NCBI GenBank assembly: GCA_008330645.1
Contig: VLTN01000030.1
Span: 361,194-425,193 of the forward strand
DNA from: Cafeteria roenbergensis
Lineage: Eukaryota > Sar > Bigyra > Bicosoecida > Cafeteriaceae
Direction: 5' to 3'
DNA: 64,000 nt
In this document: piece after piece, positions 3,990 through 64,000 of the stretch
How positions within the stretch are numbered: the stretch's first letter is position 1
Layout: the number at the start of each line of letters is the position of its first letter
Program-made: the position numbers and the translations under genes
The notes under the pieces: model-generated
What the model saw: only the letters and a program-made list of their open reading frames with translations
Database searches by the model: none
Told to the model about the DNA's origin: nothing

Positions 3990-4405
3990 CGAGGCTATCG
4001 GCGAGTTGGCTCGACTGGGCCAGAACCGGAGAATGTGCATTGGTCGTGCTTGGCGCAAGGGGGAAGGCGCCGACTACGCAGCATTGCATAGTTTGTTCGG
4101 CGTTCGATGGCTCTGCCGCCGAATTGTCCCGTTTCTGCAGCAGTCGCAATCACGACGCGCTTGAAGCACCCCCCCCCCCCCCCTTCCGTGGAGGGGGTCT
4201 GGCGAGGCCGCTCTGCAAACACCACATCCCCAGTCTCGGCTCCAATCGCCGTCCCCCCTCGAGAGCGGCAATGAATGCGCTCCCGAGAGGTGCGTCGTCA
4301 GAAGCAGCCGTGCGCGAGCGGCGCGCCGCTCGGCATGACAACGCCCGCCACCCGCCGCGCAGCCGTCAAGGCATAGGCCGGCCGGCGAAGGCGCTGCCGC
4401 CGCCA
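3990..4405. other. intergenic with a C-homopolymer
   Basis: About 415 bp upstream of the mitochondrial-protein gene. It contains an uninterrupted run of about 16 C near 4169. Nothing else recognised. Confidence 0.5.
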
Positions 4406-5374: not shown

Positions 5375-5559
5375 TCGGTCGTCCCCTTTTTCTCTGCTGC
5401 GCAAGAGGGTCAGGTGTCGCACTGGCGGCTTCAGCAAGCCGCGCGGGAACACGCGAGGCAGAGCCAAGTCGGACCGCGAAATGCAACACACGCAGCCTGC
5501 TCCTCGCCGCGCCACAACGAAGCAGCGACTCCTACCGGGAGCAAACAGAATCTCGAAGC
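5375..5559. promoter_or_regulatory. short divergent intergenic region, likely bidirectional promoter
   Basis: 185 bp separate the start codons of the minus-strand mitochondrial-protein gene and the plus-strand Maf gene. No TATA box is visible. Promoter function is inferred from position only. Confidence 0.4.
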
Positions 5560-6998: not shown

Positions 6999-7394
6999 GC
7001 GGCCGCGATGCTGCTCGCTACAGCGCATGCAAGCGGGAAACGGAGCCTGCTGAGCGTCGCGCTACATATAAGCCATCGCGCAAGCATTCGGACTCGCACA
7101 CAGCAACTCGCGGTGCGGGGCTGCCGCCAACACTCGGCGCACCGCGGCCCGCCCAGCGCGTGTCCCCCAGCACCGCAGCGCCGCGTCTGAAGCCTTGCGC
7201 TCCCACGGGCAACCCGTCTTTGGAGCGGCAGTCGTCGCGGCTGCGCCTCGGTGCACTTGCTGGCGGCACTGCAATCGGCTCCGAGCGAGCCGACTCCCTC
7301 CCCCCTGCTTGCCTCGCCCACGTGCCCCCCCGCGGCCCCGTATCGACGGATCGGGACTGCAGTCGCCGCATAGCGGCCGTTGGCTGGCTTTAAT
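6999..7394. other. intergenic upstream of the kinesin gene
   Basis: About 400 bp. An ACATATAAGCC element near 7064 is TATA-like but lies some 330 bp before the kinesin ATG. No gene seen. Confidence 0.4.
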
Positions 7395-44799: not shown

Positions 44800-47700
44800 C
44801 AGCATGGATGGCACCATCGCCACTAGAGGGTGGGCAAGGGCTCAAGGTCGATTTGACTGCAGACAGCATCGAATGCAATTCAACCCCAGAGCGAGAGACA
44901 CCGCCCCAGCTGAACTCGCCACGCCCACCCGGCCCGAGCAGTGGTTGCTGCGATGCGCACTTCGCGGCTTGCCGTGGCAACACGGGCCCGGCGATCGCCT
45001 CGAGACGGTGGGGCAGGGTTCGAGGTCGATTTGCCTGCAGACAGCATCGAATGCAAATGAACCCCAGAGCGAGAGACACCGCCCCAGCTGAACTCGCAAC
45101 GCCCACCCGGCCCGACCGCGTTGCTGCGATGCGCACTTCGCGGCTTGCCGTGGCAACACGGGCCCGGCGATCGCCTCAAGACGGCGGGGCAGGGTTCGAG
45201 GTCGATTTGACTGCAAACAGCATCGAATGCAAATGAACCCCAGAGCGAGAGACACCGCCCCAGCTGAATTCGCCACGCCCACCCGGCCCCAGCAGTGGTT
45301 GCTGCGATGCGCAGTTCACGGCTTGCCGTGGCAACATGGGCCCGGCGATCGCCTCGAGACGGTGGGGCAGGGTTCGAGGTCGATTTGACTGCAAACAGCA
45401 TCGAATGCAAATGAACCCCAGAGCGAGAGACACCGCCCCAGCTGAATTCACCACGCCCACCCGGCCCGAGCAGTGGTTGCTGCGATTCGCACTTCGCGGC
45501 TTGCCGTGGCAACATGGGCCCGGCGATCGCCTCGAGACGGCGGGCAGGGTTCGAGGTCGATTTGACTGCAAACAGCATCGAATGCAAATGAACCCCAGAG
45601 CGAGAGACACCGCCCCAGCTGAATTCACCACGCCCACCCGGCCCCAGCAGTGGTTGCTGCGATGCGCAGTTCGCGGCTTGCCGTGGCAACACGGGCCCGG
45701 CGATCGCCTCGAGACGGCGGGCAGGGTTCGAGGTCGATTTGACTGCAAACAGCATCGAATGCAAATGAACCCCAGAGCGAGAGACACCGCCCCAGCTGAA
45801 CTCGCAACGCCCACCCGGCCCGAGCAGTGGTTGCTTCGATGCGCAGTTCGCGGCTTGCCGTGGCAACACGGGCCCGGCGATCGCCTCGAGACGGTGGGGC
45901 AGGGTTCGAGGTCGATTTGACTGCAAACAGCATCGAATGCAAATGAACCCCAGAGCGAGAGACACCGCCCCAGCTGAATTCACCACGCCCACCCGGCCCG
46001 AGCAGTGGTTGCTGCGATGCGCAGTTCACGGCTTGCCGTGGCAACATGGGCCCGGCGATCGCCGCGAGACGGTGGGGCAGGGTTCGAGGTCGATTTGACT
46101 GCAAACAGCATCGAATGCAAATGAACCCTAGAGCGAGAGACACCGCCCCAGCTGAATTCGGCACGCCCACCCGGCCCGACCGCGTTGCTGCGATGCGCAC
46201 TTCGCGGCTTGCCGTGGCAACACGGGCCCGGCGATCGCCGCGAGACGGCGGGGCAGGGTTCGAGGTCGATTTGACTGCAAACAGCATCGAATGCAAATGA
46301 ACCCCAGAGCGAGAGACACCGCCCCAGCTGAATTCACCACGCCCACCCGGCCCCAGCAGTGGTTGCTGCGATGCGCAGTTCGCGGCTTGCCGTGGCAACA
46401 TGGGCCCGGCGATCGCCTCGAGACGGTGGGGCAGGGTTCGAGGTCGATTTGACTGCAAACAGCATCGAATGCAAATGAACCCTAGAGCGAGAGACACCGC
46501 CCCAGCTGAATTCGGCACGCCCACCCGGCCCGACCGCGTTGCTGCGATGCGCACTTCGCGGCTTGCCGTGGCAACACGGGCCCGGCGATCGCCTCGAGAC
46601 GGCGGGGCACGGTTCGAGGTCGATTTGACTGCAAACAGCATCGAATGCAAATGAACCCCAGAGCGAGAGACACCGCCCCAGCTGAATTCACCACGCCCAC
46701 CCGGCCCGAGCAGTGGTTGCTGCGATGCGCAGTTCACGGCTTGCCGTGGCAACATGGGCCCGGCGATCGCCGCGAGACGGTGGGGCAGGGTTCGAGGTCG
46801 ATTTGACTGCAAACAGCATCGAATGCAAATGAACCCTAGAGCGAGAGACACCGCCCCAGCTGAATTCACCACGCCCACCCGGCCCGAGCAGTGGTTGCTG
46901 CGATTCGCACTTCGCGGCTTGCCGTGGCAACACGGGCCCGGCGATCGCCTCGAGACGGCGGGCAGGGTTCGAGGTCGATTTGACTGCAAACAGCATCGAA
47001 TGCAATTGAACCCTAGAGCGAGAGACACCGCCCCAGCTGAATTCACCACGCCCACCCGGCCCCAGCAGTGGTTGCTGCGATGCGCAGTTCGCGGCTTGCC
47101 GTGGCAACATGGGCCCGGCGATCGCCTCGAGACGGCGGGCAGGGTTCGAGGTCGATTTGACTGCAAACAGCATCGAATGCAAATGAACCCCAGAGCGAGA
47201 GACACCGCCCCAGCTGAATTCACCACGCCCACCCGGCCCCAGCAGTGGTTGCTGCGATGCGCAGTTCGCGGCTTGCCGTGGCAACATGGGCCCGGCGATC
47301 GCCTCGAGACGGTGGGGCAGGGTTCGAGGTCGATTTGACTGCAAACAGCATCGAATGCAAATGAACCCTAGAGAGCGAGAGACACCGCCCCAGCTGAATT
47401 CGGCACGCCCACCCGGCCCGACCGCGTTGCTGCGATGCGCACTTCGCGGCTTGCCGTGGCAACACGGGCCCGGCGATCGCCGCGAGACGGTGGGGCAGGG
47501 TTCGAGGTCGATTTGACTGCAAACAGCATCGAATGCAAATGAACCCCAGAGCGAGAGACACCGCCCCAGCTGAATTCACCACGCCCACCCGGCCCCAGCA
47601 GTGGTTGCTGCGATGCGCAGTTCGCGGCTTGCCGTGGCAACATGGGCCCGGCGATCGCCGCGAGACGGTGGGGCAGGGTTCGAGGTCGATTTGACTGCAA

Positions 47701-50700
47701 ACAGCATCGAATGCAAATGAACCCTAGAGCGAGAGACACCGCCCCAGCTGAATTCACCACGCCCACCCGGCCCGAGCAGTGGTTGCTGCGATGCGCAGTT
47801 CACGGCTTGCCGTGGCAACATGGGCCCGGCGATCGCCTCGAGACGGTGGGGCAGGGTTCGAGGTCGATTTGACTGCAAACAGCATCGAATGCAAATGAAC
47901 CCCAGAGCGAGAGACACCGCCCCAGCTGAATTCACCACGCCCACCCGGCCCCAGCAGTGGTTGCTGCGATGCGCAGTTCGCGGCTTGCCGTGGCAACACG
48001 GGCCCGGCGATCGCCGCGAGACGGTGGGGCAGGGTTCGAGGTCGATTTGACTGCAAACAGCATCGAATGCAAATGAACCCCAGAGCGAGAGACACCGCCC
48101 CAGCTGAATTCACCACGCCCACCCGGCCCCAGCAGTGGTTGCTGCGATGCGCAGTTCGCGGCTTGCCGTGGCAACATGGGCCCGGCGATCGCCGCGAGAC
48201 GGTGGGGCAGGGTTCGAGGTCGATTTGACTGCAAACAGCATCGAATGCAAATGAACCCCAGAGCGAGAGACACCGCCCCAGCTGAATTCACCACGCCCCC
48301 CCGGCCCCAGCAGTGGTTGCTGCGATGCGCACTTCGCGACTTGCCGTGGCAACATGGGCCCGGCGATCGCCTCGAGACGGCGGGCAGGGTTCGAGGTCGA
48401 TTTGACTGCAAACAGCATCGAATGCAAATGAACCCCAGAGCGAGAGACACCGCCCCAGCTGAATTCACCACGCCCACCCGGCCCGAGCAGTGGTTGCTGC
48501 GATGCGCAGTTCGCGGCTTGCCGTGGCAACATGGGCCCGGCGATCGCCTCGAGACGGCGGGCAGGGTTCGAGGTCGATTTGACTGCAAACAGCATCGAAT
48601 GCATTTGAACCCCAGAGCGAGAGACACCGCCCCAGCTGAACTCGCCACGCCCACCCGGCCCGAGCAGTGGTTGCTGCGATGCGCACTTCGCGGCTTGCCG
48701 TGGCAACATGGGCCCGGCGATCGCCTCGAGACGGTGGGGCAGGGTTCGAGGTCGATTTGACTGCAAACAGCATCGAATGCAAATGAACCCTAGAGCGAGA
48801 GACACCGCCCCAGCTGAATTCACCACGCCCACCCGGCCCGAGCAGTGGTTGCTGCGATTCGCACTTCGCGGCTTGCCGTGGCAACATGGGCCCGGCGATC
48901 GCCTCGAGACGGTGGGGCAGGGTTCGAGGTCGATTTGACTGCAAACAGCATCGAATGCAATTGAACCCCAGAGCGAGAGACACCGCCCCAGCTGAATTCA
49001 CCACGCCCACCCGGCCCCAGCAGTGGTTGCTGCGATGCGCAGTTCGCGGCTTGCCGTGGCAACATGGGCCCGGCGATCGCCTCGAGACGGTGGGGCAGGG
49101 TTCGAGGTCGATTTGACTGCAAACAGCATCGAATGCAATTCAACCCCAGAGCGAGAGACACCGCCCCAGCTGAATTCACCACGCCCACCCGGCCCGAGCA
49201 GTGGTTGCTGCGATGCGCAGTTCGCGGCTTGCCGTGGCAACACGGGCCCGGCGATCGCCTCGAGACGGTGGGGCAGGGTTCGAGGTCGATTTGACTGCAA
49301 ACAGCATCGAATGCAAATGAACCCTAGAGCGAGAGACACCGCCCCAGCTGAATTCGGCACGCCCACCCGGCCCGACCGCGTTGCTGCGATGCGCACTTCG
49401 CGGCTTGCCGTGGCAACACGGGCCCGGCGATCGCCGCGAGACGGTGGGGCAGGGTTCGAGGTCGATTTGACTGCAAACAGCATCGAATGCAAATGAACCC
49501 CAGAGCGAGAGACACCGCCCCAGCTGAATTCACCACGCCCACCCGGCCCGAACGCGTTGCTGCAATGCGCACTTCGCGGCTTGCCGTGGCAACATGGGCC
49601 CGGCGATCGCCTCGAGACGGTGGGGCAGGGTTCGAGGTCGATTTGACTGCAAACAGCATCGAATGCAATTCAACCCCAAAGCGAGAGACACCGCCCCAGC
49701 TGAACTCGCCACGCCCACCCGGCCCGAACGCGTTGCTGCAATGCGCACTTCGCGGCTTGCCGTGGCAACACGGGCCCGGCGATCGCCGCGAGACGGTGGG
49801 GCAGGGTTCGAGGTCGATTTGACTGCAAACAGCATCGAATGCAAATGAACCCCAGAGCGAGAGACACCGCCCCAGCTGAATTCGCCACGCCCACCCGGCC
49901 CGAGCAGTGGTTGCTGCGATGCGCAGTTCGCGGCTTGCCGTGGCAACACGGGCCCGGCGATCGCCTCGAGACGGTGGGGCAGGGTTCGAGGTCGATTTGA
50001 CTGCAAACAGCATCGAATGCAAATGAACCCCAGAGCGAGAGACACCGCCCCAGCTGAATTCACCACGCCCACCCGGCCCGAGCAGTGGTTGCTGCGATTC
50101 GCACTTCACGGCTTGCCGTGACAACACGGGCCCGGCGATCGCCTCGAGACGGCGGGGCAGGGTTCGAGGTCGATTTGACTGCAAACAGCATCGAATGCAA
50201 ATGAACCCCAGAGCGAGAGACACCGCCCCAGCTGAATTCACCACGCCCACCCGGCCCCAGCAGTGGTTGCTGCGATGCGCAGTTCGCGGCTTGCCGTGGC
50301 AACATGGGCCCGGCGATCGCCGCGAGACGGTGGGGCAGGGTTCGAGGTCGATTTGACTGCAAACAGCATCGAATGCAATTCAACCCCAAAGCGAGAGACA
50401 CCGCCCCAGCTGAACTCGCCACGCCCACCCGGCCCGAACCGCGTTGCTGCAATGCGCACTTCGTGGCTTGCCGTGGCAACATGGGCCCGGCGATCGCCTC
50501 GAGACGGTGGGGCAGGGTTCGAGGTCGATTTGACTGCAAACAGCATCGAATGCAAATGAACCCTAGAGCGAGAGACACCGCCCCAGCTGAATTTGGCACG
50601 CCCACCCGGCCCGAGCAGTGGTTGCTGCGATGCGCAGTTCACGGCTTGCCGTGGCAACATGGGCCCGGCGATCGCCTCGAGACGGTGGGGCAGGGTTCGA

Positions 50701-52690
50701 GGTCGATTTGACTGCAGACAGCATCGAATGCAAATGAACCCTAGAGCGAGAGACACCGCCCCAGCTGAAATCACCACGCCCGCCCGGCCCGACCGCGTTG
50801 CTGCGATGCGCACTTCGCGGCTTGCCGTGGCAACACGGGCCCGGCGATCGCCTCGAGACGGCGGGGCAGGGTTCGAGGTCGATTTGACTGCAAAACAGCA
50901 TCGAATGCAAATGAACAAACCCAGAGCGAGAGACACCGCCCCAGCTGAATTCGATGCCACGCCCACCCGGCCCCAGCAGTGGTTGCTGCGATGCGCACTT
51001 CGCGGCTTGCCGTGGCAACACGGGCCCGGCGATCGCCTCGAGACGGTGGGGCAGGGTTCGAGGTCGATTTGACTGCAAACAGCATCGAATGCAAATGAAC
51101 CCTAGAGCGAGAGACACCGCCCCAGCTGAACTCACCACGCCCACCCGGCCCGAGCAGTGGTTGCTGCGATTCGCACTTCGCGGCTTGCCGTGGCAACATG
51201 GGCCCGGCGATCGCCTCGAGACGGTGGGGCAGGGTTCGAGGTCGATTTGACTGCAAACAGCATCGAATGCAAATGAACCCCAGAGCGAGAGACACCGCCC
51301 CAGCTGAATTCGCCACGCCCACCCGGCCCGAGCAGTGGTTGCTGCGATTCGCACTTCGCGGCTTGCCGTGGCAACATGGGCCCGGCGATCGCCTCGAGAC
51401 GGTGGGGCAGGGTTCGAGGTCGATTTGACTGCAGACAGCATCGAATGCAATTCAACCCCAGAGCGAGAGACACCGCCCCAGCTGAACTCGCAACGCCCAC
51501 CCGGCCCGACCGCGTTGCTGCGATGCGCACTTCGCGGCTTGCCGTGGCAACACGGGCCCGGCGATCGCCTCAAGACGGCGGGCAGGGTTCGAGGTCGATT
51601 TGACTGCAAACAGCATCGAATGCAAATGAACCCCAGAGCGAGAGACACCGCCCCAGCTGAATTCGCCACGCCCACCCGGCCCCAGCAGTGGTTGCTGCGA
51701 TGCGCAGTTCACGGCTTGCCGTGGCAACATGGGCCCGGCGATCGCCTCGAGACGGTGGGGCAGGGTTCGAGGTCGATTTGACTGCAAACAGCATCGAATG
51801 CAAATGAACCCTAGAGCGAGAGACACCGCCCCAGCTGAATTCACCACGCCCACCCGGCCCCAGCAGTGGTTGCTGCGATGCGCAGTTCGCGGCTTGCCGT
51901 GGCAACATGGGCCCGGCGATCGCCGCGAGACGGTGGGGCAGGGTTCGAGGTCGATTTGACTGCAAACAGCATCGAATGCAAATGAACCCCAGAGCGAGAG
52001 ACACCGCCCCAGCTGAACTCGCAACGCCCACCCGGCCCGAGCAGTGGTTGCTGCGATGCGCAGTTCACGGCTTGCCGTGACAACATGGGCCCGGCGATCG
52101 GTTCGAGACGGTGGGGCAGGGCTCAGGGTCGATTTGACTGCAAACAGCATCGAATGCAATTCAACCCCAGAGCGAGAGACACCGCCCCAGCTGAATTCAC
52201 CACGCCCACCCGGCCCCAGCAGTGGTTGCTGCGATGCGCAGTTCACGGCTTGCCGTGGCAACACGGGCCCGGCGATCGCCTCGAGACGGTGGGGCAGGGT
52301 TCGAGGTCGATTTGACTGCAGACAGCATCGAATGCAAATGAACCCCAGAGCGAGAGACACCGCCCCAGCTGAACTCGCAACGCCCACCCGGCCCGAGCAG
52401 TGGTTGCTGCGATGCGCAGTTCACGGCTTGCCGTGACAACATGGGCCCGGCGATCGGTTCGAGACGGTGGGGCAGGGCTCAGGGTCGATTTGACTGCAAA
52501 CAGCATCGAATGCAATTCAACCCCAGAGCGAGAGACACCGCCCCAGCTGAATTCACCACGCCCACCCGGCCCCAGCAGTGGTTGCTGCGATGCGCAGTTC
52601 ACGGCTTGCCGTGGCAACACGGGCCCGGCGATCGCCTCGAGACGGTGGGGCAGGGTTCGAGGTCGATTTGACTGCAAACAGCAACGAATG
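44800..52690. repeat. 178-bp satellite array, about 44 monomers
   Basis: Head-to-tail 177-178-bp units fill the stretch. Each unit contains GAATTC or GAACTC, CACGCCCACCCGGCCC, CTTGCCGTGGCAACA, GGGCCCGGCGATCGCC, GGGGCAGGGTTCGAGG and GCATCGAATGCAAATGAACC. Monomers differ mainly in a variable segment after CCCGGCCC (GAGCAGTGG, CCAGCAGTGG, GACCGCGTTG or GAACGCGTTG) and by a 1-bp loss (GACGGCGGGCAGG). The left edge (44800-44880) is degenerate, and the right edge ends inside GCAACGAATG at about 52690, where a retroelement 3' end follows. Long open frames cross the array on both strands only because the monomer lacks stops in several frames. A centromeric or subtelomeric satellite is likely from size and context. 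Confidence 0.95.
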
Positions 52691-53030
52691 AATGAACATC
52701 GTTGGGGGGGGGTCAAAGACTCGCGTCACCATACCACACTTTCGATTCACAGACTCACCAATCACCAATCCAGCAACTCCATCACCGATGAGTCACAAAC
52801 CGCGCCAAACCCACAATCCCAAGTCTCAAGTCCCAGATCCCTGCCATCACACCGCCACGAGTCGCCACTCAGCCGCCCCTGCTCACCGCATACGCTCCAC
52901 CTGCTGTCGCAGGTACTGCGTCTGCCCGATCAGCTGGGTCGCCAGTCCCTTGGCGATGACCTCGTTCAGCCTCGACAGCCAGCGAAAGGCCCAGCGCGCA
53001 CGCTCCCTCGGCCGGTCACCGAAGGCCGCG
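52691..53030 (-). mobile_element. 5'-truncated LINE copy A
   Basis: About 340 bp of the retroelement 3' end. The 3' terminus at the left is the complement of TGAACATCGTTGGGGGGG. The body holds the approximately 190-bp 3' UTR and the last roughly 50 codons of the element's ORF (ending ...GQTQYLRQQVERMR). Truncated at GAAGGCCG. Joined directly to the satellite on the left and to copy B on the right. Confidence 0.9.
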
Positions 53031-53372
53031 AATGAATGAACATCGTTGGGGGGGGTCAAAAACTCGCGTAACCATACCACACACTCGAGTCACAGACTCA
53101 CCAATCACCAATCCAGCAACTCCATCACCAATGAATCACAAACCGCGCCAAACCCACAATCCCAAGTCCCAAGCCCAGATCACTCCCATCACACTGCCTC
53201 GAGTCGCCACTCAGCCGCCCCTGCTCACCGCATACGCTCCACCTGCTGTCGCAGGTACTGCGTCTGCCCGATCAGCTGGGTCGCCAGTCCCTTGGCGATG
53301 ACCTCGTTCAGCCTCGACAGCCAGCGGAAGGCCCAGCGCGCACGCTCCCTCGGCCGGTCACCGAAGGCCGCG
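53031..53372 (-). mobile_element. 5'-truncated LINE copy B
   Basis: Nearly identical to copy A and truncated at the same nucleotide (GAAGGCCGCG followed by AATGAATGAACATCG). A and B together form a 342-bp tandem repeat, so B probably arose with A by local duplication rather than by independent insertion. Confidence 0.9.
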
Positions 53373-53864
53373 AATGAATGAACATCGTTGGGGGGGGTCA
53401 AAGACTCGCGTCACCATACCACACACTCGAGTCACAGACTCACCAATCACCAATCCAGCAACTCCATCACCAATGAATCACAAACCGCGCCAAACCCACA
53501 ATCCCAAGTCTCAAGTCCCAGATCACTCCCATCACACTGCCTCGAGTCGCCACTCAGCCGCCCCTGCTCACCGCATACGCTCCACCTGCTGCCGCAGGTA
53601 CTGCGTCTGCCCGATCAGCTGGGTCGCCAGTCCCTTGGCGATGACCTCGTTCAGCCTCGACAGCCAGCGGAAGGCCCAGCGCGCACGCTCCCTCGGCCGG
53701 TCACCGAAGGCCGTGTCCGCCACCTTCTTGAGGAAGGCGAAGGCCGCCGGTCCCATGCGTCCCGTGGTCGTGATGACGAAGGGCACAATGGAGCTCAAGT
53801 TGTCCTTTGTAGCTGAGCTCTTCTTGTACTCCCTCATCTTGTCATTCTCACGGCGCTCGAGAAT
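53373..53864 (-). mobile_element. 5'-truncated LINE copy C
   Basis: About 490 bp: 3' UTR plus roughly the last 100 codons of the element ORF (reaching back to LERRENDKMREYKK). Truncated at GCGCTCGAG and followed directly by the 3' end of copy D. Confidence 0.9.
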
Positions 53865-55160
53865 TGAATGAACATCGTTGGGGGGGGTCAAAAGCTCGCG
53901 TAACCATGCCACACACTCGATTCACAGACTCACCAATCACCAATCCAGCAACTCCATCACCGATGAGTCACAAACCGCGCCAAACCCACAATCCCAAGTC
54001 TCAAATCCCAGATCCCTGCCATCACACTGCCTCGAGTCGCCACTCAGCCGCCCCTGCTCACCGCATACGCTCCACCTGCTGCCGCAGGTACTGCGTCTGC
54101 CCGATCAGCTGGGTCGCCAGTCCCTTGGCGATGACCTCGTTCAGCCTCGACAGCCAGCGGAAGGCCCAGCGCGCACGCTCCCTCGGCCGGTCGCCGAAGG
54201 CCGTGTCCGCCACCTTCTTGAGGAAGGCGAAGGCCGCCGGTCCCATGCGTCCCGTGGTCGTGATGACGAAGGGCACAATGGAGCTCAAGTTGTCCTTTGT
54301 AGCTGAGCTCTTCTTGTACTCCCTCATCTTGTCGTTCTCACGGCGCTCGAGAAAGGCGTCCATGTTTTGCAGGCCCTGCGTCACGTAGGACTTGCTCACC
54401 GCCGAGGTGATCTGCACGTCGACGAGACAGGTGGTCTCGAAGTCGACGTGCACCCGCAGGTCCGGTCGCTTGCGCGCGGCCTCGCTGGACCCCGGCTGGG
54501 ACCCGAAGCGCGTCTGCCCGTCCTGCCAGCTGGAGGGCTCCACCACCGACTGCAGCCCCGCCGAGCGCACCGCCGCGTGCAGGACGTCGCGGACGTCGTT
54601 GTGCGCCCGAATGGTGGAGCCCTTGCCGCAGCGGCAGCGCGCCAGGTGATGCGCCACGCCGGAGACCCCGCCGATGTGGACGGTGCCTCTCGCGGTGGTG
54701 TCCCGCTGCACGCACGCGCAGTTGATCGACACGCCGTCTGGCACCACGTGGTCGGCCTCGGAGGCTCCGATGCGGTAGCGGGTGACCACCGCGAACTCCT
54801 CGTCTGTGAGCCCGCGGGGCCCCATCATCGTGTTGCGGAGCCAGTAGTGCGTTCCCGGCACGCACGCCTCTCGGAACGCGACCAGGTCGCTCATGACGCG
54901 GAACATGGCCGGGTCGTCGATGTTGGCGACACGCTTCTCCGGCGTGCCTTTGGCCAGCGCCTCGGCCCTGCAGCGTGCTGTGCAGGCCCTGCGCGCCTTG
55001 GCCAGACGGCGCAGGAAGACACACTCGTGCTTGATGCGCAGCATGTCGTCATGATGCAGCATCATCTTGCGCTGCCAGGGCGCCTCGGTCTGCTCGTTCG
55101 CCAGCCTCGTCACCCCGTCGCCGTACAGGCACTTGCGGAGCTTGGCCTTCAGGTCATCCG
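53865..55160 (-). mobile_element. 5'-truncated LINE copy D, about 1.3 kb
   Basis: 3' terminus at 53865 (complement of TGAATGAACATCG), 3' UTR to 54057, and an open C-terminal ORF upstream of it. Homology to copy H ends at about 55160, just before ELKAKLRKCLYGDG in the protein. Beyond that the sequence is unique. Confidence 0.88.
54058..55160 (-). CDS. LINE ORF fragment: C-terminal zinc-knuckle and nuclease-like domain (copy D)
   Basis: The last roughly 365 codons of the retroelement ORF, still free of stops and frameshifts. It includes SINCACVQRDTTARG, HHLARCRCGKGST (Cys/His cluster) and RPDLRVHVDFETTCLVDVQI, followed by the VPFVITTTGRMGPAAFAFL block. The frame continues upstream into non-element sequence to 55770 by chance, producing a chimeric 570-codon frame. 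Against copy H the substitutions are few, so insertion was recent. Without the reverse transcriptase it cannot mobilise itself. Confidence 0.75.
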
Positions 55161-56344
55161 ACAGCTGATGCTTGGAGGCAGGGGCGCGGGCGATCGTGCT
55201 CTGCGAGGTCTCGCATTGCCTGCCGATCCCAGGACGTGGTAGACCTCGTTTCTTCTGCCCGGCCCGTTGACGCCTCCGGAAGAACTGGATGCTTGCCTGC
55301 CCGCGAACTGAATCGCCTTGCCTGGCAGGCCCGAATGCGCGCCAATCGCCAAGGCCGAAACACGAGACGACTCTCCCCAATCGCGACGCCACGCCGCGCG
55401 CAATTCCCACTCCGTGCCCCGGGGAAGCTCGTGCCCCCGCGGCCTCTGTGCGCAAGGCCAAACCTCTTCCGTTTTCTGACCATCGCAGGACGCGTGGGTC
55501 TTGGCAGCACGCCGAGTCGTCGACTCCAGCCAACTGAAACCATGAGCCTCCACCAATCAATCCCATTGTTCGGTGCCTTCGGCCAGACATTGCTTGCTCA
55601 CCTTCCTCGGAAACAGGTGTGGCTGGGGTGAGCCGCGAAGCAACGCCAAAGACACGCAGCATCTCCCTCTCCCTGCTTTCTCGTCTGCTCCGCGGGGTGG
55701 TGGGCGAGCACCGCAAGCCGAGTGCTGGGCATAGACTGCACAGGTTCACGACAATGAGCTGATTGCCCACCCGAAACTCCTGGCCGCGACTCCCATGCTC
55801 AGGTGCGGGGCTTGCGGCAGCGGCGCCTCCGGCGAGGTTGCCTCCCCAGCCAGCGCGATTTCAGGGCCCTGGCCCCCGGTAGCTGCTGTGATGCAACACA
55901 GGTCTTGTAGGTGAGGGAGTGGGCGCTGGGGGGTGTGGGGCTGGAGCGGTCCTGGGGCGGTTGGAGAGCCTGCGCGACAGCGGCGGCAAGCAGCGTCTGT
56001 GCTTCGCAACGCCCGCCGAGCGCGTAAGCCACACTCGAGCACGATCACACCATGCGCCATGCACGGAAACAAGCATGGCCAAATCTGCGGGTCGACTGGG
56101 CGATGGCGGGCTGCAGGCGCGGCCCTGTTCGGCCGTGCGTTGTGTGTTTGCTCGTGGTTCTGCTGGCATAGTTGGCTCTGCTCTCGGCTGCATCGGGCAG
56201 AGCTGCAGGCCAGCAAAAAATCGTGACTACGGCGAACTTGCCGAACGCACTCGCCTTTGCTGCCCCCGCGGACTCCCAGGAGGCCGCCCGCGACGCTGAG
56301 AGGCCCACAGAGGGCAACCTTCTTCGCTTTTTGCCGAGCTTGCC
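55161..56344. other. 1.2-kb unique segment between LINE copy D and the NTPase gene
   Basis: No element homology, no recognisable gene. It probably includes the promoter of the plus-strand NTPase-nuclease gene and the pre-insertion flank of copy D. Confidence 0.4.
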
Positions 56345-59300
56345 ATGCTGGCGCGGGGCTTACGGGGCGCAGGGCGGGCGTCGCGGGCTGTACTGCCCGC
56401 ATGCGCGCGGACAGCCGATGCGGTTCGGCAGCATTGCCTCAAGCCAGTCGCCGTCCTGAGCGGCGCAGGCGAGCCCCTGTGCCGCACCCTTTGGAGCGCA
56501 GGTTTCTTGGTGCTTCAGGACAGCACGGGCGGCGCGCGGCCCGTCCTGGTGCGCCCTCTGAGCTCCGCGGCGTCGGAGACTGACTCCCACCCGTTGTCGA
56601 CTGACGCCGAGCGGTGGGCTGACAACCACCTGCCCAGAGAATCTGCAAGGCGCGACGCCGTTGGTCTGGCTCTGGGAGCACTCTCGCTTTCCTCCGTCTC
56701 GCCGACGGACGCTCGAGCGCGGGTGGAGCTCGGGCAAGACTTTTTTCTGTTCGTTCTGGAAATGGCTGCCATCAAGGGGCTCCGCTCTGACGACAACGCG
56801 GACATCGTCGAGCTGCTTGGAAGGCTCGGCACCGCCAGCATGGAGCTCGCCCACTGCACCGACATCGACGCGGTGCTTCACCATGCCGGAGTGACTCTGG
56901 CCATGCCCGGCGGCGAGGCGCAGCTGGCCAAGTGGCACCGGCTGGGCCACCTGCAGTCCGTGGCGGGAGGCTTCGCGGAGGTCATGGCCAAGCCATCCAC
57001 CATCGCCACAGTGGAGACGCACGCCAAGAAGCTGCTCTTGGAGGCCAAGCGCGAGGCCGAGGAGAAGGCCGAGAAGGAAAAGCGCGAGGCCGCAGAGCAG
57101 GAACTCCGGCTTGTTCCAGCTCGTAGGCTGTTTCTGGAGTTGGACCGCCACTTAATGGTCATCGACGGACGGCAAGGCCAAGCTCTCTTGGATGTGCTCA
57201 TCCTAAGAGTTCAGGCAGCGCTGGTCAGCAGGCTGCCAGCCGACAGCCCGATGATGGCTGATCTGCCATCGAACGTCGTTCACCTCAGCCGGCGGCTCAA
57301 GCAGCGGTCAGTCGATAACGCCTGCAAGCTAGCAGAGGATGCCGAAGCTGCAGTCCCTCAGGAGGACCTGTCCCGAGCTGCCCTCGAGGCCGTGGCGGAG
57401 CGCCTGGTAGTCAAGTTCAAATCGTGGGATGACCCCAGTTGGCTGGCATGTCAACCCGCGCTTTTTGATATCCTTCACTGCACGGCAACGACATGTCCGC
57501 CGGTGTTCTTGACTGCACAGGACAGGCATGCCGATGCCGCGAAGAGCCACCTGCCTGACGTTTACTTCAGGAGGCGCACAGAGCCTAGGGGCTCTTGGAT
57601 CAGCGAAGCATTCAGTTGCGCGAGGCCGAGTCCACCAGGCAACTCTTTCCTTTTCACGGGACCCCGTGGCGCTGGCAAGACGCAGACGCTGCTCTCGATG
57701 GGTTTCGCCAACGCATTCTTGGGAGCCGCTCACGGCGAACAGCGAAGCACTGTGATTGTGTTGCGGCCAACAGACACCCTGGAGCAGACGGACGACAGCC
57801 TTGGTGTCGAGCAATCGGACCTCGCAAGCCGCATCGTTGAAGCTGCAGCCCGAGATCCGAGCAACGTGGTGTGGAGAGCCATGCTTCGGCTGGGGTACCT
57901 CGACGCTCACCTGGGTGGTAAGTCTGGGCTTGAGGTCGCCACAGAGCGCATGGAGACGATGACAAGCATCCCTTGGACTGCCATTGGCCAGGACGACAGA
58001 GCCGCGTTCGGAGACATGCTCGACGGGCACAAGCGGTCTCCCAAGATCAGCATGACCCTGTGCTTCGACGAGAGCCAGAACTACTACGTTGACCGCCGCG
58101 TCCACCGCAAGTTTACCCGCTTTGTGGAGGACCATTACGAATCGAACATCCCGATGCGGATTGTGATCACTGGCAGCTCGGCCCTTCTTCCCCGCCTCAT
58201 TCGCGGATCGGCGCATGATGAACTGTTGACGCAGCGCCTCAACGCGCACAGTGTCGCCGTCCGCGAGAGCGGCGTGAGTGCGCCAGAATTTGCGGTCGCA
58301 GCGGCACCCGGATCCTCGTTCAGCTCGTTCGGGCACGCATTCAACATGAGTAAGATGAGAACCGTCACTACGATCCCCTATCTCGAGGAATCCGAGGGTC
58401 TGGCCTTCCTACGGACGTCCCAGCGGCAGCACTCCGCGGAGTTGACGCGCTTCATGGAAACCTTGCCCGAGTCGGACGTTGAGGCCAAGGCGATGATCGC
58501 GCCCTTGGTGGCGGCATCCAACGGCAACCCACGAGCTTTCCTTCAGATGAAGTGGAGCGCGGTAGTCGAAGGTGGTCTTGAGAAAGCGGCCGAAGCTGCC
58601 ATCAATGATCAGTATCGACGTTTCCGGGAGCTTGTTGCCGCTGCCAAGCCCGTCCCCGAACGCCTGGTCCTCCTAAAGGCAGTCGGGCTGGCCTTTCTCG
58701 GGAAGCTCAAGCCGGAGGTATCCGGCTCAAGCACCGGGCGCACGAAAGCAGGCGGAATGCCAGTGCAACAGTCGAGCTCGATCGTCGATTCGTCGTCCGG
58801 CTTCGTAACACCGCTCTCGCTATTGAGCGCTGCGCTGTCAGCGTCGCAGCGGCTCTTTGGCAAGGACGCTGCGCACACCAAGGAGCTGGAGGGCTTCATG
58901 TCACACTCCAGCAGCAGCGGCAGCACGGCATTGGCAGGTGATGACTTCGAAGCTGCGGCAGACTTTTGGCTTGAAGTCGGCTTCTTTCGGGGCCGGACTA
59001 GCGCACGTTCGCTCGTTCTGCCCGGCGAAGTGTGGACCTCCTTTGCCGTGCAGCTCGTTCTTGCCGGATCTGCTCTCACCTCGGTTGAGTTGATGGCCCT
59101 GATCAGCCCTTCAAGGCAGGGTCTGAGCGACCACTTCGAGCGCTTGCTCGCGGCCGAGCTGCTCCACAGTGGTTTCCAGGCGTTCGTGTCGGCTTGCATG
59201 GCCAGGTTTGCGCCAGGGCACGAGTGCTCCGGTAGGCTGAAGGAGCGGCTTGCCGCGACAGCCTCGACGGATGGCGCCGCTGCTGAACTGGTCAGCCATC

Positions 59301-60016
59301 GCCATGTCGCCAAGGATGGAGAGACGCTTTCGTCGCCGCCACCCTTGGAGCCAATCATGGTGTGGGGAGGCACAAGCAAGGATCCCAAAGTTGTGGCGGC
59401 TGACAAGGACGATGAGCCGATCAAGCCGTGGCAGCTCCTCAAGCATCGGCACGACTGGGGCGGCGTGGATGTCATGGTTGTGTTTGCGGTCAAGGATTGT
59501 GTTTACGTCCTTTTGCTCCAGTCCAAGGCACGTGAGCCTTCGCTGTCCGGTAAGCCAAAGGAGATGTCGGCAGCAGCGGCGGCGAAGTTGCAGACTGCCA
59601 TGTTCAACATGGCTACGAAGCTGCGGAGTGCCGTCGTTCCAAGTCCTGATCCCGGCAAGGCCTGGAGCGACATCCCCGGCAAGCGGTCGCTGATAGCCAG
59701 AATCATGGACAATGACATTGCCAAGGGATGCACCGAAATGGTCGTGTGCTCGTCTGTCATCACCACGAAGCTCATCAAGGAGGCCAGAACAGGCTGCGAC
59801 ACCGACCTGTTCAGCATTCCCGAGTCACCGGAGACCTTCCTTCTCGAAGAAGGCGAGCCAAGCGCCACTGGCAGCGCCGCAGCGAAGTCACGGAGCGTCC
59901 AGGTGTGGGACCTGCGGCTGCCTGCAGACAGCCTGGTGCTGCGAAAGTTGATGACGAAGGATATGGAAGATGCGTTGAGTGTGTGTGGGATTGAGCTGCC
60001 CGACAGCGCCGAATGA
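56345..60016 (+). CDS. P-loop NTPase with C-terminal PD-(D/E)XK-like domain (Crinkler/RHS-like)
   Basis: Single exon, 1223 residues. Layout: Arg/Ala-rich N-terminus; helical region; charged coiled coil (THAKKLLLEAKREAEEKAE, about 225-260); P-loop GPRGAGKTQTLL (about 438); Walker B TLCFDESQ (about 570); a sensor-like RIVITGSSALLPRL (about 605); a long helical part; and a C-terminal domain with WGGVDVMVVFAVKDCVYVLLLQSKAR (about 1037-1060), where D and QSK sit as in the D...(E/Q)xK core of restriction-endonuclease folds. An STAND/AAA-like NTPase followed by such a nuclease is the pairing described for trypanosome retrotransposon-hot-spot proteins and for Crinkler-type proteins of oomycetes and other eukaryotes. 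It lies between two groups of truncated LINE copies in opposite orientation to them, and has no stops or frameshifts. Base and codon use are less extreme than in the left-hand genes. Confidence 0.7.
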   Translation: MLARGLRGAGRASRAVLPACARTADAVRQHCLKPVAVLSGAGEPLCRTLWSAGFLVLQDSTGGARPVLVRPLSSAASETDSHPLSTDAERWADNHLPRESARRDAVGLALGALSLSSVSPTDARARVELGQDFFLFVLEMAAIKGLRSDDNADIVELLGRLGTASMELAHCTDIDAVLHHAGVTLAMPGGEAQLAKWHRLGHLQSVAGGFAEVMAKPSTIATVETHAKKLLLEAKREAEEKAEKEKREAAEQELRLVPARRLFLELDRHLMVIDGRQGQALLDVLILRVQAALVSRLPADSPMMADLPSNVVHLSRRLKQRSVDNACKLAEDAEAAVPQEDLSRAALEAVAERLVVKFKSWDDPSWLACQPALFDILHCTATTCPPVFLTAQDRHADAAKSHLPDVYFRRRTEPRGSWISEAFSCARPSPPGNSFLFTGPRGAGKTQTLLSMGFANAFLGAAHGEQRSTVIVLRPTDTLEQTDDSLGVEQSDLASRIVEAAARDPSNVVWRAMLRLGYLDAHLGGKSGLEVATERMETMTSIPWTAIGQDDRAAFGDMLDGHKRSPKISMTLCFDESQNYYVDRRVHRKFTRFVEDHYESNIPMRIVITGSSALLPRLIRGSAHDELLTQRLNAHSVAVRESGVSAPEFAVAAAPGSSFSSFGHAFNMSKMRTVTTIPYLEESEGLAFLRTSQRQHSAELTRFMETLPESDVEAKAMIAPLVAASNGNPRAFLQMKWSAVVEGGLEKAAEAAINDQYRRFRELVAAAKPVPERLVLLKAVGLAFLGKLKPEVSGSSTGRTKAGGMPVQQSSSIVDSSSGFVTPLSLLSAALSASQRLFGKDAAHTKELEGFMSHSSSSGSTALAGDDFEAAADFWLEVGFFRGRTSARSLVLPGEVWTSFAVQLVLAGSALTSVELMALISPSRQGLSDHFERLLAAELLHSGFQAFVSACMARFAPGHECSGRLKERLAATASTDGAAAELVSHRHVAKDGETLSSPPPLEPIMVWGGTSKDPKVVAADKDDEPIKPWQLLKHRHDWGGVDVMVVFAVKDCVYVLLLQSKAREPSLSGKPKEMSAAAAAKLQTAMFNMATKLRSAVVPSPDPGKAWSDIPGKRSLIARIMDNDIAKGCTEMVVCSSVITTKLIKEARTGCDTDLFSIPESPETFLLEEGEPSATGSAAAKSRSVQVWDLRLPADSLVLRKLMTKDMEDALSVCGIELPDSAE

Positions 60017-60047
60017 ACATCTGGAAGTGATCGAAAGATAGGCTGGT

Positions 60048-60410
60048 TGAACATCGTTGGGGGGGGTCGAAAACTCGCGTCACCATACCACACACTCGAT
60101 TCACAGACTCACCAATCACCAATCCAGCAACTCCATCACCGATGAATCACAAACCGCGCCAAACCCACAATCCCAAGTCTCAAGTCCCAGACCACTCCCA
60201 TCACACTGCCTCGAGTCGCCAATCAGCCGCCCCTGCTCACCGCAAACGCTCCACCTGCTGCCGCAGGTACTGCGTCTGCCCGATCAGCTGGGTCGCCAGT
60301 CCCTTGGCGATGACCTCGTTCAGCCTCGACAGCCAGCGGAAGGCCCAGCGCGCACGCTCCCTCGGCCGGTCGCCGAAGGCCGTGTCCGCCACCTTCTTGA
60401 GGAAGGCGAA
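60048..60410 (-). mobile_element. 5'-truncated LINE copy E
   Basis: 3' end TGAACATCGTTGG (plus-strand view) about 31 bp after the NTPase stop. Carries the 3' UTR and about 58 codons, truncated at TTGAGGAAGGC. Confidence 0.9.
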
Positions 60411-60417
60411 TGAGAAT

Positions 60418-60579
60418 GAATGAACATCGTTGGGGGGGGTCAAGAACTCACGTAACCATACCACACACTCGATTCACAGACTCACCAATCACCAATCCAG
60501 CAACTCCATCACCGATGAATCACAAACCGCGCCAAACCCACAATCCCAAGTCTCAAGGTCCCTGCCATCACACTGCCTG
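60418..60579 (-). mobile_element. 5'-truncated LINE copy F, 3' UTR only
   Basis: About 160 bp: only the 3' UTR, with a small internal change (TCTCAAGGTCCCTGCC, lacking the CCCAGAT segment). Truncated at CACTGCC and followed directly by copy G. Confidence 0.88.
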
Positions 60580-60939
60580 TGAACATCGTTGGGGGGGGTC
60601 GAAAACTCGCGTAACCATACCACACACTCGATTCACAGACTCATCAAAAACCAATCCAGCAACTCCATCACCGATGAATCACAAACCGCTCCAAACCCGC
60701 AATCCCAAGTCTCAAGTCCCAGATCACTCCCATCACACTGCCTCGAGTCGTCACTCAGCCGCCCCTGCTCACCGCAAACGCTCCACCTGCTGTCGCAGGT
60801 ACTGCGTCTGCCCGATCAGCTGGGTCGCCAGTCCCTTGGCGATGACCTCGTTCAGCCTCGACAGCCAGCGAAAGGCCCAGCGCGCACGCTCCCTCGGCCG
60901 GTCGCCGAAGGCCGTGTCCGCCACCTTCTTGAGGAAGGC
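60580..60939 (-). mobile_element. 5'-truncated LINE copy G
   Basis: About 360 bp with the same truncation point as copy E (TTGAGGAAGGC). Between its end and the 3' terminus of copy H lies the hexamer TTAGGG (60940-60945). Confidence 0.88.
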
Positions 60940-61134
60940 TTAGGGTGAACATCGTTGGGGGGGGTCGAAAACTCGCGTAACCATACCACACACTCGATTC
61001 ACAGACTCACCAATCACCAATCCAGCAACTCCATCACCAATGAGTCACAAACCGCGCCAAACCCACAATCCCAAGTCTCAAATCCCAGATCCCTGCCATC
61101 ACACTGCCTCGAGTCGCCACTCAGCCGCCCCTGC

Positions 61135-63132
61135 TCACCGCAAACGCTCCACCTGCTGTCGCAGGTACTGCGTCTGCCCGATCAGCTGGGTCGCCAGTCC
61201 CTTGGCGATGACCTCGTTCAGCCTCGACAGCCAGCGGAAGGCCCAGCGCGCACGCTCCCTCGGCCGGTCGCCGAAGGCCGTGTCCGCCACCTTCTTGAGG
61301 AAGGCGAAGGCCGCCGGTCCCATGCGTCCCGTGGTCGTGATGACGAAGGGCACAATGGAGCTCAAGTTGTCCTTTGTAGCTGAGCTCTTCTTGTACTCCC
61401 TCATCTTGTCATTCTCACGGCGCTCGAGAAAGGCGTCCATGTTCTGCAGGCCCTGCGTCACGTAGGACTTGCTCACCGCCGAGGTGATCTGCACGTCGAC
61501 GAGACGGGTGGTCTCGAAGTCGACGTGCACCCGCAGGTCCGGACGCTTGCGCGCGGCCTCGCTGGAGCCCGGCTGGGACCCGAAGCGCGCCTGACCGTCC
61601 TGCCAGCTGGAGGGCTCCACCACCGACTGCAGCCCCGCCGAGCGTACCGCCGCGTGCAGGACGTCGCGGACGTCGTTGTGCGCCCGGATGGTGGAGCCCT
61701 TGCCGCAGCGGCAACGCGCCAGGTGGTGTGCCACGCCGGAGACCCCGCCGATGTGGACGGTGCCTCTCGCGGTGGTGTCTCGCTGCATGCACGCGCAGTT
61801 GATCGACACGCCGTCCGGCACCACGTGGTCGGCCTCGGAGGCTCCGATGCGGTAGCGTTCCACCACCGCGAACTCCTCGTCTGTGAGCCCGCGGGGTCCC
61901 ATCATCGTGTTGCGGAGCCAGTAGTGTGTTCCCGGCACGCATGCCTCCCGGAACGCGACCAGGTCGCTCATGACGCGTAGCATGGCCGGGTCGTCGATGT
62001 TGGCGACACGCTTCTCCGTCGTGCCCTTGGCCAGCGCCTCGGCCCTGCAGCGTGCTGTGCAGGCCCTGCGCGCCTTGGCCAGCCGGCGCAGGAAGGCGCA
62101 CTCGTGCTTGATGCGCAGCATGTCATCGTGGTGCAGCACCATCTTGCGCTGCCAGGGCGCCTCGGTCTGCTCGTTCGCCCGCGCTGTCACCCCGTCGCCG
62201 TACAGGCACTTGCGGAGCTTGGCCTTCAGCTCGCCCGGCAGCTTACCCAGGGTGTCGGGCAAGAAGCCCTCGAACCCTGTCGCTGCGGCCAGGCAGCGGG
62301 CTCCCTTGCATGCCCTGATGAACTCCTCCACCAGGTTTGCAGTTGCCTCCATGTCATCCGACGACTCGTCGTCAGATCTGAGCTCCATCATCGCCTCCAG
62401 CGCCAGCTCCTCGATCTCGGCGCGCAGCTCTTCCAGGCCCTCGACAGCCCCCGCGATGTCCGACCTCCACACGTGCGCCAGCTGGTAGCGCTTCTTCACC
62501 CTGGCGTCATGAAGGTCGGCCTCCTTGCCCACGACGCAGTCCTTGTCCGGCCTGAAGTACCGTGCCTCGGTGCAGGCGTCCTTGTACTCCTTGCTGTCCC
62601 GCTCGTAGTCCCGGTAGGCTCCCTTGGCGACCTCCTCGCATCGCAGCAGGATGTCGCCCACCTCCTTGGTCGCATCGCTGCGGTCTGAGCGCTTCAGCGA
62701 GCTCCTCACGAGTTTCTTGAGCGAGATGCCCTTCCAGTTGGGGTCGTTGCCGTCCGCGTCCGCGTCGGGTCCGTCCCTGGCCAACCCGATCGCCGGCGTT
62801 CGCCTGACCGAGTAGACCTGTGCCGCATCCGCTCTCGGCTGTGCGGCATCAGATGTCTCTTGGCCGGTTGGAGCGCCAGCCGCACTAGCTGCCGCTGCGC
62901 CGCCGCCGCTCGTCGTCATCTCGGTCGCCGCTCCCGCCGCGCTGGCGGCAGCCGCACCTCCGCCGACCGTCTGGCCTCCGCTTGTCGGTGTTGGCTGATG
63001 CCCCGGTTCAGCCGCTCCCCCCGTACCGCTGACGAGCCAGCCGTCCAGCGTACCTGCAAGCTGCTGCCCGTGCGCCGGCCCCTCCTCGCAGTCCTCCTTG
63101 GACTCGCTCTCTCCGACCGCCGGGTGGTCCAC
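61135..63132 (-). CDS. LINE ORF, C-terminal part with Cys/His cluster and restriction-like endonuclease-like domain (copy H)
   Basis: Open for 665 codons counting from a Met at 63132, which is unlikely to be the real start because element homology continues upstream. Order: Gly/Ala-rich linker; charged helical region (EVAKGAYRDYERDSKEYKDA, ELRAEIEELALEAMMEL); basic KLRKCLYGDGV segment; SINCACMQRDTTARG with HHLARCRCGKGSTIRAHNDV (zinc-binding candidate); RPDLRVHVDFETTRLVDVQITS (about residue 530), resembling the RPD...D core of restriction-like endonucleases found C-terminal to the reverse transcriptase in site-specific non-LTR elements; then EYKKSS and VPFVITTTGRMGPAAFAFL. No YxDD or other reverse-transcriptase motif in this part. 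Truncated copies A-G match its end. Confidence 0.7.
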   Translation of the reverse strand: MDHPAVGESESKEDCEEGPAHGQQLAGTLDGWLVSGTGGAAEPGHQPTPTSGGQTVGGGAAAASAAGAATEMTTSGGGAAAASAAGAPTGQETSDAAQPRADAAQVYSVRRTPAIGLARDGPDADADGNDPNWKGISLKKLVRSSLKRSDRSDATKEVGDILLRCEEVAKGAYRDYERDSKEYKDACTEARYFRPDKDCVVGKEADLHDARVKKRYQLAHVWRSDIAGAVEGLEELRAEIEELALEAMMELRSDDESSDDMEATANLVEEFIRACKGARCLAAATGFEGFLPDTLGKLPGELKAKLRKCLYGDGVTARANEQTEAPWQRKMVLHHDDMLRIKHECAFLRRLAKARRACTARCRAEALAKGTTEKRVANIDDPAMLRVMSDLVAFREACVPGTHYWLRNTMMGPRGLTDEEFAVVERYRIGASEADHVVPDGVSINCACMQRDTTARGTVHIGGVSGVAHHLARCRCGKGSTIRAHNDVRDVLHAAVRSAGLQSVVEPSSWQDGQARFGSQPGSSEAARKRPDLRVHVDFETTRLVDVQITSAVSKSYVTQGLQNMDAFLERRENDKMREYKKSSATKDNLSSIVPFVITTTGRMGPAAFAFLKKVADTAFGDRPRERARWAFRWLSRLNEVIAKGLATQLIGQTQYLRQQVERLR

Positions 63133-64000
63133 CCACGGCGTGCGCCCGCTGCAGCAGCCGCCGCACCCGACTCATCCTCCGCTTCCGCCTCGCCGGCGTT
63201 GGCTGGTCCCGCTCCGGCACCACTCCCCGACGCCGCTCGCCTCCGCCTCCACCAGTGCCGGGTCCGTCGAGGGCCTCCTCCGGCGGTGGTGCCATCTCGA
63301 ACCGCCCTTTCCGCATGTCCCGAACGGCCTCGATGAAGCCCGCTGTCGCCTCGAAGCGGAACTGCGCCACGCCAGGCAGGCCCATGCCCCCGGCTTTGCA
63401 GCCCTTGCTCAGCATCTTTGCCAGCCTCATCTGAGCGTAGCCTCCCTTCTTCAAGGCCGGGTTGGACGCTGCCGATGCGAGCCGAGTCACACCGTCGGCT
63501 TCCCGGCCCAGGAGCGCCCACCACGCTTCCGCCTTGCGTGCTCGTCCGGCAGCCCCCGAACAAGCGCCTCGATGGCCTTGGACATGGCCTCACGGAAGCC
63601 GTCCTCGTCACCGTGCACATCTCGTCCGAGAGCGCGTGGCCGATCGCATCCAGCTCCGTCTTGTGCGCCACCGCTGACAGGTTGGCCAGCAGCGCCGCAT
63701 GGAACACCGCCAGCTCCTGGCCCGCCGCCGCACCCGCTGCTCTGTGCAGGTAGCTGAACTTCTGGCCCACCACCGACAGCAGCAGGTGGTGCGCCCGCTT
63801 GAGCCGCAGACCTCGATGCCCGCGAGCAGGCGCTCCGCGCGGCCGGCCCGAACTCCTTCTCCAGTCGCTTCATCGAGTGCTCTAGTGCCACCTCCGGCGG
63901 GAGTTCCTCCCCTACAGGACACTGCAGCACCGCCACGCTCCGTTCGGTGAGGTGGCACCCCTCCAGCACCGAGGGTGGGGACCCTGGATCGTCCCTACTC
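63133..64000 (-). pseudogene. upstream part of LINE copy H ORF, frame-disrupted
   Basis: Going leftwards from the edge, coding-like segments appear in successive frames: GCHLTERSVAVLQCPVGEEL, then VVGQKFSYLHRAAGAAAGQE with LAVFHAALLANLSAVAHKTE, then DEDGFREAMSKAIEALVRGL, then ALKKGGYAQMRLAKMLSKGC with GGMGLPGVAQFRFEATAGFI. The Q-x-SYL-R and GG(M/L)GL blocks are the usual region between reverse transcriptase and C-terminal domains in non-LTR elements. Several frame changes within about 800 bp suggest a decayed copy or sequencing indels in homopolymers. I cannot tell which. Confidence 0.55.

Follow-up and report, generated by a model that had tools for sequence, protein, structure and literature searches.

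One-directional arrays of a LINE at contig ends of Cafeteria roenbergensis: candidate retrotransposon-built chromosome ends

The final part of contig C30 (VLTN01000030.1) of Cafeteria roenbergensis raises the question of why a contig should finish in a row of copies of one retrotransposon that all face the same way, and whether such a row could be the end of a chromosome. In this study, the window, that is, the whole stretch of 64,000 nucleotides covering bases 361194-425193 of C30, was examined together with the 36.3-Mb genome of 167 contigs, and the right edge of the window coincides with the end of the contig (425193 bp). Alignment to the longest copy seen, a 7363-bp copy on contig C28 that served as the reference, placed eight minus-strand segments (A-H, Table 1) of one retrotransposon lacking long terminal repeats (non-LTR) at 52693-55166 and 60048-64000. 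This confirmed the earlier note, which had described eight such copies with a common 3' terminus and variable 5' truncation. Every segment extends to the last base of the element (reference position 7363), with identities of 92.1-97.9%. We consider the array to be a terminal chromosome region that grew by repeated addition of this element onto free ends, and we put the probability of this reading at about 0.8.

The eight copies do not represent eight separate events. Copies A and B have one truncation point and one of them is probably a tandem duplicate of the other, so that the window holds at most seven independent events. The truncation point of copy D recurs in a copy on C76, and copies A-D are set apart from E-H by 4.9 kb containing an open frame of 1238 codons.

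During the distribution analysis, contig ends served as a proxy for chromosome ends. In three whole-genome searches, covering 40 of 250 candidates, 40 of 66 and the best 34 of 65, the contig end closest to a match lay on its 5' side for 80 of 82, 37 of 40 and 31 of 34 of the matches listed; on contigs of at least 100 kb the corresponding figures among the matches listed were 74/75, 26/26 and 23/24. Since matches within one array are not independent, a count by ends is fairer, and here 55 of the 58 copy-bearing contig ends, seven of which were entered by hand, have the 3' ends of the copies facing inward. Seven large contigs (C1, C3, C7, C14, C17, C30 and C31) carry inverted arrays at both ends, which does not agree with one internal cluster per chromosome. 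The 10-kb starts of six large contigs missing from the first listing (C1, C2, C5, C6, C8 and C9) yielded copies in three. Exceptions to the rule are found at three ends: C85 right, C107 left and C10 left. On C107, which measures 40 kb, all matches run in the same direction, some of them lying closer to the opposite end. Copies scattered in both orientations, which the earlier note had named as a refutation, were not observed, and 0 of 24 stretches checked contained both orientations. The copies, among the matches listed, lie near contig ends with their 3' ends inward, as the earlier note had expected of them.

The manner in which the copies are joined is equally regular. In the 24 stretches, with matches ending inside the 5' repeats of the element excluded, 87 segments were counted: 74 extend as far as the 3' terminus, 7 are truncated by the border of the stretch, and the remaining 6 comprise three remnants (two on C14, one on C22), an overlapping pair on C11, a rearranged small piece on C83, and a copy on C1 split by 527 bases foreign to the element. 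None of the 87 segments is inserted into another copy. Read on the strand running towards the end, 57 distinct junctions, out of 63 found, consist of a broken copy or other DNA, a short insert and then TGAACATCG, and the truncation points are scattered. Where the flank was assignable to a position in the element, at 38 junctions, the insert measures 0 to 35 bases, with one case of one shared base; these sizes are upper bounds, because the flank was matched without mismatch. An A precedes TGAACATCG at 46 of the 57 junctions (9.3 expected from random places in the same stretches) and TGAA at 19 (0.1 expected on the same basis). This excess points to an element RNA that would carry a tail of UUCA repeats, the source of the first DNA bases copied. 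An instructive case is the flank following the long open frame, which is common to C30, C76 and C32 and which is truncated at two different points where copies adjoin it. On C30 it runs through GGAAGTGATCGAAAGATAGGCTGGT before the next copy is attached; on C76 and C32 attachment occurs 12-15 bases earlier and involves a GAATGAA tail. A simple explanation would be that one eroding end received two additions. Addition at free ends fits these data because nesting is absent and the junctions bear such signatures; together with the orientation, they support the proposals that the right side of the window is chromosome-distal and that the element is added at ends.

With regard to the element itself, three parts can be told apart in the C28 copy: 5' tandem repeats (72-bp unit, 19.3 copies), a single long open reading frame (ORF) of 1823 codons, whose start ATG was picked by eye, and a short 3' region. 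As the reference was trimmed at the adjoining junction, its 5' end must be taken as provisional. A profile search identified a reverse transcriptase in the ORF (RVT_1, E 3.7e-20). Its best relatives among solved structures are R2 proteins (E 3.4e-5 to 1.4e-4), followed by LINE-1 ORF2 at 2.3e-4, and an NCBIfam match to group II intron reverse transcriptase (E 9.4e-10) fell far under the cut-off. With a reverse transcriptase, no long terminal repeats, and a common 3' end with 5' truncation, the element is a non-LTR retrotransposon, or long interspersed nuclear element (LINE). At the C-terminus of the ORF, the series RAHN, RPD, a later D and KMREY is complete in 25 of 34 copies and partial in the other 9, as judged with a pattern built for this very protein. 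According to excerpts of PMC5678591, restriction-like endonucleases of LINEs display a CCHC knuckle followed C-terminally by RH, PD, D and KX2KY-type residues; the CCHC spacing of the element is unlike the spacing given there. Neither a profile match nor a relevant match among solved structures was obtained for the C-terminus, and the assignment to restriction-like endonucleases therefore rests on motifs. The anatomy thus suggests an R2-class element with restriction-like-endonuclease-like motifs.

The coding sequence shows signs of recent constraint. When 23 long segments were compared codon by codon with the reference, the ratio of nonsynonymous to synonymous differences per site (pN/pS) was 0.06-0.31 per segment, the differences being mostly silent, and 0.18 when pooled, the pool including four self-matches of the 5' repeats. 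No stop was met in these segments, gapped codons being excluded. The segments carry many small insertions and deletions, with 3-23 gap letters each, and when 34 C-terminal stretches were read unaligned, 5 contained a stop; some copies therefore lack an open frame. Because the coding differences are mostly silent, the copies descend from masters that were under constraint until recently.

A mechanism for this growth can be proposed as follows. The free 3' end of the chromosome, whether bare, eroded or carrying a few TTAGGG-type bases, would act as the primer, onto which the reverse transcriptase of the element would copy the 3' end of its own RNA. First-strand DNA would then begin at the 3' terminus of the element, usually with an extra A or TGAA from the UUCA-type tail. 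Early stopping of synthesis or later erosion would leave a 5'-truncated copy, and this could in turn prime the next addition. The anatomy of the arrays leads us to infer that living chromosome ends are extended in this way and serve as natural primers, that such growth still goes on today, and that it contributes to length maintenance, either alongside telomerase or in its place.

Telomere repeats next to the copies, which the earlier note had suggested seeking, were found as a few TTAGGG-type bits and not as arrays. Among 60 distinct junctions, 2 have TTAGGG within 40 bases (0.06 expected; opposite strand, none), 5 have it in some rotation (0.55 expected; opposite strand, 1), and 6 have a word of a wider set, picked after the junctions had been viewed (0.17 expected; opposite strand, none). 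A junction on C14 carries GGGTTAGGGTTAGATTTAGG, and C7 begins with ACCCTAACCTAACCCAACC. These bits imply that TTAGGG-type DNA is probably produced by some activity, now or in the past. Tandem repeats (at least two units of TTAGGG or TTTAGGG, or three of TTAGG) were absent from the set of contig stretches examined for them, and (TTAGGG)3 with at most two mismatches gave one interior match, on C48, against 15 for the reversed control pattern. CTAACCCTAACC occurs twice (at the C14 junction and at C30:171787) against one control match. The telomerase profiles PF12009 and PF21399 gave no match in a search made without a positive-control genome. An interior reverse transcriptase on C12 was rejected as telomerase, being by eye of the DIRS/Ngaro kind; it is not single-copy, since a stretch of C85 matches it at 98.8% over 1379 bases. 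A bolder proposal is that Cafeteria has lost or hardly uses conventional telomerase repeats and that its ends are maintained mainly by an R2-class element whose RNA would bear a short tail of UUCA repeats, pairing with the 3' end of the chromosome in the manner of a telomerase template. We regard this as a speculative and rather unlikely step; if true, it would be an independent replacement of the Drosophila type in a free-living stramenopile, with an enzyme of a site-specific class turned to end extension.

Several observations weigh against growth at free ends. The endonuclease motifs suggest nicking rather than priming from a bare end. No true chromosome terminus was found among the contigs examined, and C30 and C31 end at the identical base within the element; since both stop there, these ends are assembly breaks inside an array and not termini that were seen. 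The counts of orientation come from lists that cover part of the candidates, in which matches within arrays are not independent. At the right end of C85 (C85:84500-101936), the array has its 3' ends outward and its 5' side abuts an Ngaro-like element, with no copy found in the 13.5 kb beyond the array; it may be interstitial, a former end or a misassembly. A 134-bp remnant of 87% identity at C10 left has the wrong orientation, no copy is present in the 10-kb starts of C2, C5 and C6, and G-quadruplex motifs show no strand bias, zero being found on either strand.

Other explanations of the arrays must be weighed against these data. In a process like that of MoTeR and FoTeR, an endonuclease would nick TTAGGG-type repeats synthesized by telomerase close to the end, and the element would be inserted there by target-primed reverse transcription; later loss of the distal repeats would leave bare arrays, with telomerase remaining the main maintainer. 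The endonuclease-like motifs and the TTAGGG-type bits, GGGTTAGGGTTAGATTTAGG of C14 included, are what such a process would leave, yet at least 54 of the 60 junctions have no telomere-like word under either set tested with TTAGGG, a telomere array was not found, and in FoTeR, according to excerpts of PMC12857005, 3-7 TAACCC copies come after the 3' end. We hold this explanation to be possible, though doubtful. It could also be that the copies spread mainly by recombination between ends and by tandem duplication, retrotransposition being rare. Breakpoints shared by A and B, by two copies on C3, three on C4 and several on C22, as well as repeats on C55, favor such exchange, as do the junction shared by C76 and C32 and the copy-D breakpoint with its neighboring frame shared by C30 and C76; against these stand the 57 distinct junctions of 63 and the scatter of truncation points, and as a main route we think it unlikely.

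Repeats in general collect at contig ends, since assemblers stop there, and interstitial arrays in chromosome arms could break the assembly so that copies only appear terminal. Contigs do stop inside the arrays, and the C85 array does have other DNA on its 5' side; interstitial breaks, however, should produce both orientations about equally, against one orientation at 55 of 58 ends, which makes an assembly effect improbable to our minds. Zepp LINE clusters were first described at a chromosome end, and centromere-type clusters of nested LINEs, such as Zepp of Coccomyxa, would likewise come to lie at contig ends if a centromere were broken. According to excerpts of PMC3446292, Zepp clusters of Coccomyxa and Chlorella are nested, about one per chromosome and mostly internal. 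The lack of nesting and the arrays at both ends of seven contigs speak against a Zepp-type cluster, and we give hardly any credence to a centromeric origin.

Among known systems, GilM and GilT of Giardia seem closest in kind. They combine a restriction-like endonuclease with head-to-tail arrays, in a host that has telomere repeats and telomerase. Excerpts of PMC10999387 present them as telomere-region LINEs with reverse transcription running towards the chromosome end. They belong to another lineage, and in Cafeteria neither telomere arrays nor, in the search without control, telomerase was found. The Cafeteria element, with its endonuclease-like motifs, resembles MoTeR and FoTeR of fungi, LINEs of chromosome ends that carry tandem repeats upstream as well as a domain of the restriction-like endonuclease type (PMC12857005, in part); FoTeR 3' ends abut several TAACCC repeats in the same source, whereas the Cafeteria copies mostly abut other copies or other DNA. 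R2 proteins are the best solved relatives of the reverse transcriptase and have the same order of C-terminal motifs, but R2 sits in ribosomal DNA and there is no such target for the Cafeteria element. HeT-A, TART and TAHRE are Jockey-clade elements of Drosophila. Their copies, too, stand head to tail with the 3' ends pointing at the centromere (PMC10088271, in part) and are variably truncated, and parts of PMC4700185 describe priming by the chromosome's own 3' end. The Cafeteria element differs in its R2-class endonuclease-like motifs, in being one element with its own reverse transcriptase, and in its few TTAGGG bits; judged by the different host and the R2-like motifs, it would not be a member of this family. 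The likeness to HeT-A proposed earlier thus holds for the mode of working and fails for the anatomy. The features expected of a telomeric retrotransposon, namely head-to-tail copies that face inward with their 3' ends and are added rather than inserted, are present at 55 of 58 ends with 0 of 87 segments nested. Our best reading is of a known kind of system in a new lineage, which works like HeT-A with an enzyme apparently of the R2/GilM/MoTeR type.

To our knowledge, chromosome ends built by retrotransposons are known from few lineages. Cafeteria is a cultured marine flagellate with four sequenced strains and the host of the giant virus CroV and the virophage mavirus, and it would be a tractable new case. 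Two questions could be addressed at its ends: do telomerase and telomeric retrotransposons occur side by side or does one displace the other, and in what way can an R2-class enzyme prime from a chromosome end? Our data also suggest that many contig ends of the published assembly lie at real chromosome ends. A plastid-bearing alga as the host was ruled out, since the chlorophyll-binding family has no match in the genome, as expected for a heterotroph, and a cyanobacterial control was positive. A literature search with Cafeteria and telomere terms found, among the papers listed, no title on Cafeteria telomeres. The string 'telomer' was not found in the main text of the BVI genome paper (PMC6972860) as far as that text was available, nor were 'telomer' and 'non-LTR' in the available main text of the paper on virophages in these same genomes (PMC8547959), for which a count over the file gives two occurrences of 'telomer'.

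Table 1. Features of the window, in window positions; ref, position in the C28 reference copy
Feature	Position	Strand	Basis
Satellite, 178-bp unit, alternating as ~356 bp; copy A joined to it	44816..52697	.	repeat analysis
Copy A, 3' part of element, adjoins satellite	52693..53028	-	ref 7029-7363, 95.8%
Copy B, truncation point as in A, tandem duplicate (probable for A or B)	53037..53370	-	ref 7029-7363, 96.1%
Copy C	53379..53863	-	ref 6879-7363, 97.9%
Copy D, endonuclease-like C-terminus, full motif set	53869..55166	-	ref 6063-7363, 97.3%
Open frame, 1238 codons, weak AAA_14 match, between copy blocks	56300..60016	+	profile search
Copy E	60048..60410	-	ref 7001-7363, 96.7%
Copy F	60421..60578	-	ref 7200-7363, 92.1%
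Copy G	60580..60939	-	ref 7004-7363, 94.7%
TTAGGG between broken end of G and 3' end of H	60940..60945	+ (towards contig end)	direct reading
Copy H, cut by contig end before reverse transcriptase	60946..64000	-	ref 4303-7363, 97.6%
Copy H ORF, C-terminal 339 codons, endonuclease-like motifs RAHN, RPD, D, KMREY	61135..62151	-	

The neighbors of the array are of different kinds. The satellite occupies 7.9 kb and was found on C30 only, with 23 matches inside the satellite array (2 candidates scored) and one outside it, of 67 bp and 79% at C30:337837. It is therefore private to this end and was ruled out as a general subtelomere repeat. The open frame between the copy blocks has relatives at other contig ends, on C76 (97.4% over 2970 bases), C32 (97.8% over 268), C11 (86.5% over 807) and C4 (80.5% over 483). 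Together they may constitute a family of subtelomeric genes whose location recalls that of fungal telomere-linked helicases.

The motif TGGAAATGATCGAAATCTAGGGC was noticed in both orientations, at several junction flanks and on both sides of the Ngaro-like element on C85. Such wide dispersal, with 54 places listed (among them C85:92598 and 97990, C10:467-7787 and C6:796506), ruled it out as a target. Beyond the element copy on C1, a low-GC stretch (C1:1520500-1525500) reads like a virophage-type integration. Elsewhere in the window, a 279-bp unit is repeated 2.4 times at 34536-35210 with 98% matches.

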